43,492 nucleotides of DNA, from positions 1-43,492 of the forward strand of contig JAHECZ010000023.1 in assembly GCA_024641475.1 (NCBI GenBank), given 5' to 3'. This stretch comes from Gammaproteobacteria bacterium (GTDB lineage Bacteria > Pseudomonadota > Gammaproteobacteria > UBA6429 > Thiohalophilaceae). Within the stretch, counting starts at the first letter, position 1. Each line of letters opens with the position of its first letter. The notes under the pieces are model-generated. The model searched no databases. It was not told the DNA's origin and was given only the letters and a program-made list of their open reading frames with translations. This document shows, piece by piece, positions 38,507 through 43,492 of this stretch. The position numbers and the translations under genes are program-made.

Positions 38507-39784
38507 TCATGACTGCGCATCTTCTTCGGTCGAATAGGGGTTTAAAAACTGCCTTCCCCAGAACAGTTTTCTATCTGTCTCGCTTAGCTCAGACTCATCA
38601 CATACTGAATCCCAATTGGACACAATGACTTCTTTCTGCTTTTCAAAAATTGCGTGAGCATCTTTTTCGGAAAGCAGGAAGTTGTGCGCGGCCTCAAGGC
38701 ATGTTTTCAAGTGGCTAAGATTGTCATTTCCATGAATGAGCATGGCCTGAGAAGCTTCATTTCCAGCGCGACTTTGCGGGCATATGTCATAGGCTGGCGT
38801 AAGAGTTAATTCTTTTCCATTCCAGAATGCGGCATGGTTACGCGCATGGTCATCGGTATTGCCGCAAAGAATATTGAAGCTAAGCCGAGAGAATAGCTCT
38901 TTTAGTGTATCTTTCGGATCAGTGAAACGATGCCGGATGATTTCTGCCAGCGCTTCATAACTGGCGTAACGCGCCATCATGTCATCCAGACCAAACATGG
39001 TTAAGGCCGAAACCATGGCTTTGCGTGTCCAGCCATGCGTGGCTTTTTCACGGTCAAAGCGCTCTATAAGCAGAACATCTTTATTAGCTGCTCTGGTCAG
39101 TTTTACAGGCGCAACATTTAGTCCGGCAAGCTTGGCCAGTCTCATGGCAATGAATTCAGCTTTGACGATACCGTAAAGGTCAGTGCTTGAGGAAAACTTG
39201 GCAATATATTTTTTGTCCCGATCTTCGATCAAGGCTTTCGGACGCGCACCGCCAATAGAACTGCCATGGAACAATGCATGATCCAGCTCTGGTGTGAGTG
39301 ATACACCTTTTTCAACACGCTCAGCAGAGTCCATTAATTCTTTAAGCGTGGCATTTGTCGCCGAGCGCGGCACGTATTCGGTTGGTGAGCGCTGAAAATC
39401 CAGCGCGCCAATACGATCAGAACCGGATTCAAGAAGATAGGTCATCTCGCTTAGCTCAGTGGTATCCGTTTTTGCGCCCTTTAATCCAAGCTTTTTATTG
39501 ATAATGACGCGCCGACCCCATGCGTCCGGCGCACCATCACGGATACAACCGGGCATGCTTAGTCCTTCGAGCAGGGGTAATACGCCTGCCTTTAACGGCA
39601 GCTCCGGTTCGTATATCGGAATGGCTGGATGAGTATCATTCACCCGCTCAAGGTAACTTTTACCGTAGTTGAACAGGATGTTGCCATTATCGGTTTCAAG
39701 CTTGCCTGCAACAACAGGCTCAGTTTGTTCCGGCAGCCAAATCCAGACAAAGGCTTCTTTGTAATTTTTGTTAGAAGTCATCAT
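38507..39784 (-). CDS. hipA: HipA-family toxin kinase
   Basis: Serine/threonine kinase toxin of a type II HipBA pair; the best-known HipA phosphorylates glutamyl-tRNA synthetase and stops translation, but the target here cannot be read. The 425-aa product has an N-terminal HipA domain with IRDGAPDAWGRRVI (81-94), a glycine loop SSIGGARPKA (175-184) including likely autophosphorylation serines, the catalytic GNTDDHARNH (308-317; D311 candidate base) and the metal-binding AYDICP (331-336, D333). All appear intact, so an active kinase is expected. The start overlaps the hipB end by 14 bases. It is the main cargo of the guaA-tadA islet. Confidence 0.93.
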   Translation of the reverse strand: MMTSNKNYKEAFVWIWLPEQTEPVVAGKLETDNGNILFNYGKSYLERVNDTHPAIPIYEPELPLKAGVLPLLEGLSMPGCIRDGAPDAWGRRVIINKKLGLKGAKTDTTELSEMTYLLESGSDRIGALDFQRSPTEYVPRSATNATLKELMDSAERVEKGVSLTPELDHALFHGSSIGGARPKALIEDRDKKYIAKFSSSTDLYGIVKAEFIAMRLAKLAGLNVAPVKLTRAANKDVLLIERFDREKATHGWTRKAMVSALTMFGLDDMMARYASYEALAEIIRHRFTDPKDTLKELFSRLSFNILCGNTDDHARNHAAFWNGKELTLTPAYDICPQSRAGNEASQAMLIHGNDNLSHLKTCLEAAHNFLLSEKDAHAIFEKQKEVIVSNWDSVCDESELSETDRKLFWGRQFLNPYSTEEDAQS

Positions 39785-40103
39785 CGACAGCCTTTGTTTT
39801 TACCTGAATACGTTTTGGCAGCACGGCAATCTTGTCCCTTGTTTGCTCAATCTGCTTGGAGAAGGGAAGCTTATCCTGCTCAAAAAGATTAACGCCCACG
39901 AGGGCAGCCACCTCAAAAACGATTCCAATGGCCGGGCTCATTTCGCCGCTTTCAATCTTTTGCAGGGTTGCTCTGGATATACCAGCGCGGTCAGCCAGAT
40001 TATGCTCTGTCCACTTGCGCTGCTTGCGACCGAGCTTTATCTGTTCGCCCAGCAATGTGACTGCATCATGTGCGTATTTTGAATAGGTTCTCTGTTTTGC
40101 CAT
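39771..40103 (-). CDS. hipB: HipB-family antitoxin
   Basis: Antitoxin and probable repressor of the operon. The 110-aa product has an XRE-type helix-turn-helix at about 22-80 (NLADRAGISRATLQKIESGEMSP) with an N-terminal extension and a basic C-terminal tail (about 90-110), the usual degradation-prone part. It is translated ahead of hipA with an overlap, the standard antitoxin-first order. Four matching inverted-repeat operators lie directly upstream. Confidence 0.93.
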   Translation of the reverse strand: MAKQRTYSKYAHDAVTLLGEQIKLGRKQRKWTEHNLADRAGISRATLQKIESGEMSPAIGIVFEVAALVGVNLFEQDKLPFSKQIEQTRDKIAVLPKRIQVKTKAVDDDF

Positions 40104-43067: not shown

Positions 43068-43159
43068 GGAGAGGTGTCAGAGTGGTCGAATGAGCTTGAC
43101 TCGAAATCAAGTGTCTCCTTTAGTGGGGACCGTGGGTTCGAATCCCACCTTCTCCGCCA
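43068..43159 (+). tRNA. tRNA-Ser (anticodon CGA)
   Basis: A 92-nt class II tRNA with encoded CCA. The acceptor stem GGAGAGG pairs with CTTCTCC (one G-U). The anticodon stem CTTGA/TCAAG carries loop CTCGAAA, anticodon CGA. A long variable arm and GGGTTCGAATCCC T-arm are present. It reads UCG. Confidence 0.96.
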
Positions 43160-43182
43160 AATTATAGTGTCGAGAATATTAA

Positions 43183-43218
43183 GAGTAATAAGAGTAATAA
43201 GAGTAATAAGAGTAATAA
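43183..43218 (+). repeat. Four 9-bp tandem repeats between tRNA-Ser genes
   Basis: GAGTAATAA is repeated four times without error, filling half of the 67-bp spacer between the two tRNA-Ser genes. It is a simple variable-number type repeat. Confidence 0.95.
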
Positions 43219-43226
43219 AGATATTT

Positions 43227-43314
43227 GGAGAGATGGCCGAGTGGTCGAAGGCGCACGCCTGGAAAGTGTGTATACGGCAACGTATCGAGGGTTCGAACCC
43301 CTCTCTCTCCGCCA
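43227..43314 (+). tRNA. tRNA-Ser (anticodon GGA)
   Basis: An 88-nt class II tRNA, nearly identical to E. coli tRNA-Ser(GGA) through the anticodon and variable arms. The loop CTGGAAA gives anticodon GGA, and CCA is encoded. It reads UCC and UCU. Its last 19 bases are the beginning of a repeat that recurs at 43462. Confidence 0.97.
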
Positions 43315-43326
43315 ATATTGATAAAT
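43296..43326 (+). repeat. tRNA-Ser tail repeat, copy 1
   Basis: A 31-bp sequence made of the last 19 bases of tRNA-Ser(GGA) plus 12 bases of flank. It recurs exactly at 43462-43492, 166 bp further on. Confidence 0.95.
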
Positions 43327-43393
43327 CTACATGAAAGATAATTAGCCATAAAACATGCCATACGAACCCTCGATATAAATAAAAGTGGTTCGA

Positions 43394-43456
43394 CCGGCGC
43401 ATTATGCGCCGGAATAGCACCATGATGTGGTGCTGCCCGCAGGGCGAGGCGCAGCC
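43394..43456 (+). repeat. Run of four hairpins after tRNA-Ser(GGA)
   Basis: Stems CCGGCGCA/TGCGCCGG (43394-43412), AGCACCA/TGGTGCT (43416-43434), GCCC/GGGC (43435-43445) and GGC/GCC (43448-43456) follow one another. They lack a T-tract; they could be a stable RNA or a processing and termination structure. Confidence 0.7.
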
Positions 43457-43461
43457 GAGTT

Positions 43462-43492
43462 AACCCCTCTCTCTCCGCCAATATTGATAAAT
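43462..43492 (+). repeat. tRNA-Ser tail repeat, copy 2 (runs off window)
   Basis: Exact copy of 43296-43326 without the rest of a tRNA in front of it. The match is still perfect at the last base of the window, so the full repeat length is unknown. Confidence 0.95.

Follow-up and report, generated by a model that had tools for sequence, protein, structure and literature searches.

A repeat unit at the end of a gammaproteobacterial contig is probably a tyrT-type tRNA-linked repeat with a core from a family of small mobile repeats

The DNA analysed here, a stretch of 43,492 nt referred to as the window, ends in what we take, with a probability of roughly two in three, to be a tRNA-linked repeat (TLR) of the tyrT/rtT type whose core belongs to a family of small mobile repeats. 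E. coli TLRs, first seen at tyrT, have been on record since 1978 with neither a function nor an origin assigned to them. Roughly one in five of the phylum's sampled genomes carries the core, which turns an E. coli curiosity into a testable family; its members are seen behind many tRNA species, tmRNA and 5S rRNA, and also as mirrored, reversed and ERIC-like-borne copies.

Results

The host stable-RNA gene, tRNA-Ser(GGA), lies at 43227–43314 on the plus strand (ARAGORN; 57.3 bits with the Rfam tRNA model). Its 5' neighbour, tRNA-Ser(CGA) (43068–43159, plus strand, ARAGORN), has no unit of its own, and its last 14 nt are not repeated downstream. The initial annotation had reported that 19 bp of the tRNA end together with 12 bp of flank reappear exactly 166 bp further on, and this holds at 100% identity. 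Copy 1 of this direct repeat of 31 bp (43296–43326, plus strand) comprises tRNA positions 58–76 (19 nt) and the 12-nt 3' flank. Copy 2 (43462–43492), as delimited by repeat search on the plus strand, consists of the tail AACCCCTCTCTCTCCGCCA (43462–43480), which repeats tRNA positions 58–76 and agrees with the 3' end of tRNA-Ser(GGA) at 19/19 positions, and of the second 12-nt flank (43481–43492), with which a further spacer begins before the contig breaks off. A chance origin of the repeat was ruled out by an expectation of about 2e-10 such 31-mer repeats in 43 kb of uniform random sequence. The window comprises all of contig G000:C13, and copy 2 ends on its final base. Probing the genome's own assembly with 18 nt from the repeat end (at most 2 mismatches) detected no other site. 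One tandem unit is thus read before the contig stops, and a repeat terminating with its contig is the pattern that an unresolved tandem array would be expected to give. Elsewhere in the window, the 9-bp sequence AAGAGTAAT occurs in tandem between the two tRNA-Ser genes (43178–43213), and a HipA-like kinase gene (HipA_C, Couple_hipA) adjoins a small HTH gene in a HipAB-type toxin–antitoxin layout (38507–40103, minus strand).

Between the two copies of the repeat lie an inverted 13-nt copy of the T-arm, CGAACCCTCGATA (43363–43375, minus strand; exact against 43283–43295), absent from the initial annotation, and the structured core, GGTTCGAC...GCCGAGT (43387–43460, plus strand), which begins 73 nt past the tRNA gene on the same strand. 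The core was recognised with two covariance models, R1 and R2. At 43387–43459 it scores 44.9 bits with R2, which contains no rows from the own genome (E 3e-10; the next best match in the window reaches 10.4 bits), and 49.6 bits with R1, whose training set includes the window core. The four hairpins claimed for the unit are likewise predicted by the fold of 43359–43480 (−48.9 kcal/mol, z −3.93, with 0/200 shuffles equally good). All are on the plus strand: H1 (CGAACC/GGTTCG, 43363–43392) and H3 (43416–43434) are backed by the fold and a three-locus alignment, H2 (43394–43412) by the fold and family covariation, and H4 (GCCC GCA GGGC, 43435–43445) by the fold and the family alignment, in which its CCC/GGG is nearly invariant. 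The adjoining H5 region, GAGGCGCAGCCGAGT (43446–43460, plus strand), forms a short stem flanked by two GA dinucleotides that is backed by the family alignment, while the single-sequence fold of the window unit favours a different pairing there. Two minus-strand ORFs (100 and 133 aa) cross the unit; both extend through the tRNA gene and were judged mechanical.

A BLAST search of the window unit against its own genome revealed related DNA on two further contigs, directly behind tRNA-Ser(GCU) on C53 and behind tRNA-Glu(UUC) on C127, each unit closing with a copy of the 3' end of the tRNA that it follows; the core is also present behind tRNA-Gln. R1 finds 15 matches in this genome (E<=0.1), and all of the tRNA-linked ones (6/6) carry a tail identical to the tRNA at 18 or 19 of 19 positions. 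Two tandem units each occur at C71 and C127, both C71 units scoring 55.8 bits with R2, and tandem spacings of 184 and 253 bp are seen at two loci of the genome besides that of the window. The Rfam model RtT aligns over its full length at the window, C53 and C127 loci, with 16.3, 19.9 and 18.5 bits against a gathering score of 45, and a search of the whole own genome with RtT at E<=0.01 gave no match. The genome's single csrA match closely precedes tRNA-Ser(GCU) and the TLR behind it (L005, C53 19269–19822, minus strand).

These copies bear on the alternative raised in the initial annotation, namely the duplication of an attachment site around a very small integrase-dependent element. The T-loop and 3' end, where the 19-bp repeat lies, are often used by tyrosine integrases, and in Marinobacterium jannaschii (L016, 1089–7130) a segment with a Phage_integrase gene (PF00589) separates tRNA-Arg(CCG) from a displaced tRNA 3' part. 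For the window we nevertheless consider this explanation very improbable, because the insert of only 135 bp between the repeats is too small to hold an integrase, with the crossing ORFs being mechanical, and because the core recurs behind tRNA-Ser(GCU), tRNA-Glu and tRNA-Gln. The same core further occurs in ERIC-like repeats and at rrn operons, with differing flanking repeats, and the TLR of L016 is located outside the integrated element. In L016 the displaced tRNA 3' part is followed by this TLR, the two kinds of element using the same tRNA region.

Since RtT includes part of the tail, any link between RtT matches and tRNAs is partly built in, and R1 was therefore constructed from cores only, free of the tail (39 rows, 23 pairs). 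It derives from 45 units, from which we dropped C127 unit 2, L013b and L017 (without GGTTCG), L032 and L039 (misplaced start) and one E. coli unit; L021 was excluded because of Ns. Because the training rows of R1 included the window core, we avoided circularity by building R2 without own-genome rows, from 36 rows of other genomes, two being E. coli tyrT. In the R1 alignment, 83.5% of the pair cells hold standard pairs, compared with 67.6% after shuffling, and 126 cells are changed on both sides, compared with 45.0 (0/500 shuffles reach either value); structures slid along the sequence pair in 31–45%. The pair flanking H5 reads C-G in 35 cores, T-A in 15, T-G in 3 and C-A in 0 (Fisher 1.3e-10, kinship not removed), the table covering 53 classifiable of 71 distinct cores, with 18 outside it. 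An arm-swap test gave a clear signal for H2 (6.93 vs 3.79) and H5 (3.69 vs 2.60) and a weak one for H3 (4.75 vs 4.06). In the strand test, G-T mismatches outnumber A-C mismatches by 73 to 54 over all stems and by 24 to 3 in H4/H5 alone.

R1 matches were found in 83/398 genomes of the phylum, the own genome included (E<=1e-4), and RtT matches at E<=0.01 in 32/143 genomes of the window's class, with the Rfam cut-off reached in only 7 genomes. Scanning species genomes with the strictest core pattern yielded 8 loci, five in Marinobacterium, one in Amphritea and one in Balneatrix (tRNA-Arg(CCG) or its 3' end), and one in Hafnia (tRNA-Lys); at one of the strict-pattern loci (L015) ARAGORN finds no tRNA, and at another (L016) the tRNA is 6 kb away. 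When R1 loci were sampled once per genome, 27 of 30 lay behind a tRNA or tmRNA, or the visible 3' end of one, 2 did not, and 1 was at a contig edge. Of a further 40 regions, hand-chosen from genomes rich in copies, half (20) stand behind a tRNA; ERIC-like repeats account for 10 and the interval between rrn terminators for 2, and the remaining 8 adjoin no tRNA, ERIC-like repeat or rrn. One 1.9-Mb genome (G251) holds 27 core matches, compared with 1 to 13 in eight relatives of the same family to which an identical search was applied; this recent expansion of the core is worth a look as a candidate place for the mobilising enzyme.

The tails follow the local tRNA. Among all 71 RtT matches of 32 genomes, with each tandem unit counted singly, 64 follow, on the same strand, a tRNA called by ARAGORN at most 873 nt away (Ser 34, Gln 20, Tyr 4, Arg 2, and Val, Glu, Pro and Thr 1 each); the other seven are one behind a tmRNA (L026), one at a contig edge (L078) and five mirror cases. 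On average 17.4 of the 19 tail positions are identical to the last 19 nt of the local tRNA, compared with 11.4 for tRNAs of other amino acids. Tails identical at 17/19 positions or more occur in 52/64 comparisons with the own tRNA, a figure favoured by selection because RtT holds part of the tail, and in 2/2516 with tRNAs of other amino acids. With the tail-free model in other genomes, full tails (>=17/19) were present in 16/40 tRNA-linked matches, made up of 9/20 ARAGORN-linked matches from the one-per-genome loci and 7/20 from the chosen regions; in the other 24/40 the tail is incomplete, several of these tails beginning at the same seam (AATCC...) before diverging. The units also contain inverted copies of the local tRNA end, the longest exact match averaging 9.2 nt against 5.9 nt for other tRNAs (61 units), and reaching at least 10 nt in 20/61 units with the own tRNA against 102/2212 with other tRNAs. 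Directly 5' of GGTTCGA in the common form, agreement with the local tRNA is only slightly above that with others (1.69 vs 1.21 of 5).

Such locally matched tails could also be expected of a resident family of small-RNA genes under selection, whose tail would copy the tRNA or 5S 3' end for the same nucleases (RNase E and others), with template switching between inverted and direct copies keeping the tails matched to their surroundings. The covariation of the hairpins agrees with this explanation, as do the inverted copies that follow the local tRNA, which quasi-palindrome template switching would yield, and RrB of E. coli, which is transcribed and processed and ends next to its repeat, a position for which its authors propose an RNase E explanation (PMC8144298). 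The incomplete tails in 24/40 tRNA-linked matches speak against it, as does the patchy presence of the core at the same tRNA within genus and family. Moreover, the ERIC-like copies, the reversed copies beside tRNA-Met and tRNA-Leu and the copies 5' of a tRNA, all described below, need no 3' processing signal, so that we regard a resident RNA gene as unlikely, although worth keeping in mind, and favour a mobile core.

At the orthologous site beside an MltF-type gene, R1 detects the core in 7/17 loci having a tRNA-Ser on the same strand (own genome, L054, L056, L060, L063, L065 and L066), with 10 lacking it. A relative of the same genus (G143, L049) has both tRNA-Ser genes without the core, a terminator-like hairpin standing directly behind them, and R2 gave no match at E<=1 on this empty site. 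By eye, other or decayed hairpins are visible in L050, L051 and the second tail copy of L066. In two relatives (L056 and L060, both behind tRNA-Ser(GGA)) a further hairpin pair (GACTCTCTGTTCC...GTAGGCG) splits the 19-nt TLR tail; it is a putative second hairpin element that is nested inside the first.

Core similarity was compared among 77 cores (71 matches minus one skipped, plus 7 added). Within one genome (G015), the cores at tRNA-Gln(UUG) and tRNA-Val(GAC) are 95% alike, and their tails fit their own tRNAs at 19/19 and 18/19 positions; between genomes, the best pair reaches 89% and the best pair with the same anticodon 88% (348 pairs). Gene conversion could produce near-identical cores within one genome. 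A pair with a similarity of 0.99 in G055 was not counted as mobility, because it is probably one array split over two contigs.

Further copies depart from the common form. In three mirror cases, L083 (three tandem units), L104 and L081, the unit is located 5' of an intact tRNA and runs from the tRNA 5' part, up to TTCGA, through the core to the start of the tRNA 3' part; the mirror copy of the tRNA in L081 is diverged. In the own genome, the core is reversed beside tRNA-Met and tRNA-Leu(GAG) (C107, C114), where the tRNA is split after CGA, and on C66 it follows CAGA of a tRNA-Ser 5' copy. One D-loop case was found among the core copies. In G380 and G491 the core stands after GGGTGA within interspersed repeats that we take to be ERIC. 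The continuous 18-nt repeat pattern (<=1 mismatch) has 61 sites in G380 and 42 in G491; six of these sites were retrieved, and the core is absent from four of them and occupies a second position, after GAGGA, in L193 and L196. Filled and empty ERIC-like repeats occur within a single genome. Across tRNA, 5S and ERIC-like targets alike, the core starts directly after GA. Taken together, the mirrored and reversed units and those at non-tRNA sites point to a mobile hairpin whose insertion would follow 'GA', with the T-loop seam (position 58) as the typical place. A search of the own genome, which is 97.4% complete, gave 0 matches to the Y1 transposase family (PF01797), so mobilisation by Y1/RAYT is unsupported here; the copies could still be non-autonomous relics.

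The loops of the core open a further reading, a mobile decoy of CsrA/RsmA, in which the core would be kept since GGA in two hairpin loops titrates CsrA and in which coupling to stable-RNA transcription would tie CsrA activity to growth. We treat this as a minority reading and rate it as quite unlikely. Aligned matches (149, from 99 hand-chosen sources) gave 139 distinct cores. Of these, 80 have GGA in the H2 loop and 73 have it in the H5 loop, compared with means of 24.1 and 23.7 and maxima of 40 and 36 in 500 loop shuffles, and 66/139 cores have it in both; in the remaining loops the counts are 13 vs 4.4 shuffled (H4) and 6 vs 12.1 (H3). Such paired GGA loops resemble CsrA ligands and accord with the in vitro binding of RrB given in PMC8144298, and CsrA is present in 78/83 core-bearing genomes compared with 220/398 overall, kinship not being removed. 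However, the window's own unit is without a GGA loop, a 100% complete genome with no CsrA hit (G013) carries both GGA loops, and in the CsrA-bearing G294 and G196 both loops are found in 0/5 and 0/4 cores. Furthermore, the 19 tRNA-operon TLRs of E. coli score below 0.01 for CsrA in PMC8144298. Both loops are present in 13/32 cores of CsrA-less genomes, two of these five genomes being 69–74% complete, compared with 33/54 otherwise.

Discussion

Based on the insertion sites and the variant copies, we propose that the core is a hairpin-rich segment of about 70–85 bp from a small mobile repeat family that would insert directly after GA. Its commonest target would be the T-loop seam (TTCGA^A) of a tRNA or tmRNA sequence, with the 3' end of 5S RNA, ERIC-like repeats and sites elsewhere as further ones. 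An intact stable-RNA gene would persist beside the interrupted partial copy, presumably since the tRNA stays functional in events of this kind alone. If the break lies at position 58, a 19-nt tail (58–76) is left downstream, and the hallmark tail of TLRs would thereby be explained as a simple outcome of the insertion position. This is only part of the picture: because the common form carries an inverted and hardly a direct tRNA copy, the scheme additionally needs fold-back copying or template switching at a later stage. A simple insertion into a full direct tRNA duplicate was considered as well; it fits the mirror, reversed, 5S and ERIC-like cases but fails for the common form. Arrays would grow by tandem duplication of unit plus spacer, as the identity of the spacers suggests. 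The unit would be co-transcribed as a trailer of the tRNA and trimmed near its CCA; the E. coli rttR annotation places trimming near the CCA of the unit. The comparisons support this picture, in which movement itself, its enzyme and transcription at the window locus are inferred.

In E. coli K-12, TLRs comprise 22 genes at ten loci, and their 3' 18–19 bp equal the 3' end of the upstream stable RNA; PMC8144298 gives their function as not known, traces an early starvation phenotype to a nearby reading frame and, in its conservation analysis, finds Enterobacteriales only. The analogy with E. coli tyrT drawn in the initial annotation is borne out: tyrT/V (L009) has the same layout, with GGTTCGAC, hairpins, CCCGnAGGGCGA..GC.GAGTAATCC and the tRNA 3' end in this order, and its class is the one that R2 recognises in the window core. 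Judged by its sequence, the window unit is a TLR and hence a member of a published class without an explained function, as it stands behind a stable-RNA gene, ends in a 19/19 tail and has a core related to known TLRs, while remaining below the gathering score of Rfam RF00391 RtT. Like the E. coli TLRs, it follows a tRNA, has the core motif and hairpins and ends in the 18–19-nt tail that equals the tRNA 3' end, and tandem units, of which a TLR locus has one to five, are known from E. coli tyrT (178 bp) as from two other loci of the window genome; unlike them, it has tRNA-Ser(GGA) of a gammaproteobacterium that, judged by its kin, is non-enteric as its host, and its inverted copy spans the T-arm instead of the acceptor strand. 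The expectation that such a unit would be new was right only in part: the class as such had been published (PMC8144298), whereas we found no report of TLRs beyond Enterobacterales or of their mobility in the literature covered, subscription papers being outside its scope.

REP/MITE-type repeats resemble the core in being short, non-coding, hairpin-forming and repeated, some within palindromes (cf. PMC3733652); unlike REPs, the core resides in a genome from which the Y1 family that mobilises them is absent. The ERIC-like insertions share the core and its start after GA (GGGTGA^, GAGGA^); unlike the window unit, they have an interspersed palindrome as their target, with no tRNA and no duplicated tail. 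ERIC is reportedly known to carry a '70-bp insertion'.

Counterparts outside tRNA operons are RrA, RrB and RrF, between the E. coli rrn terminators T1 and T2, which have the same core with a stable-RNA 3' end repeated behind it, the host gene being 5S rRNA in contrast to the window unit. The rrB of E. coli K-12 rrnB, which was not in the training set, scores 51.8 bits with R1 and 58.0 bits with R2, and a BLAST search found the rrB stretch in 3951/5426 E. coli genomes. Behind rrB, the 5S 3' end is repeated over 30 nt at 93% identity, 168 bp apart (E. coli strain B379), with the seam GTAGGGA^ACTGCC. As described in PMC8144298, the repeat left by 5S counts 18 nt, the RrB 3' end was mapped 3 nt beyond it, and RrB binds Hfq and CsrA in vitro, the latter through GGA motifs. 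In an E. coli rrn operon (L198, 533–562 and 701–730), the repeated 5S end continues into the start of the terminator region, so that the origin of the second rrn terminator may lie in this duplication of the 5S end. The rrnB T1–T2 stretch is a standard vector terminator, and our comparison suggests that it holds a mobile-element relic. In its widest form, the comparison would unite tyrT/rtT repeats, rrn inter-terminator RNAs, ERIC insertions and tRNA/tmRNA hairpin arrays in one mobile hairpin family that inserts after GA with a preference for the T-loop, many members having paired-GGA loops as CsrA decoys and the 18–19 bp being the insertion footprint; we put this forward tentatively, as a possibility that we hold at somewhat less than even odds.
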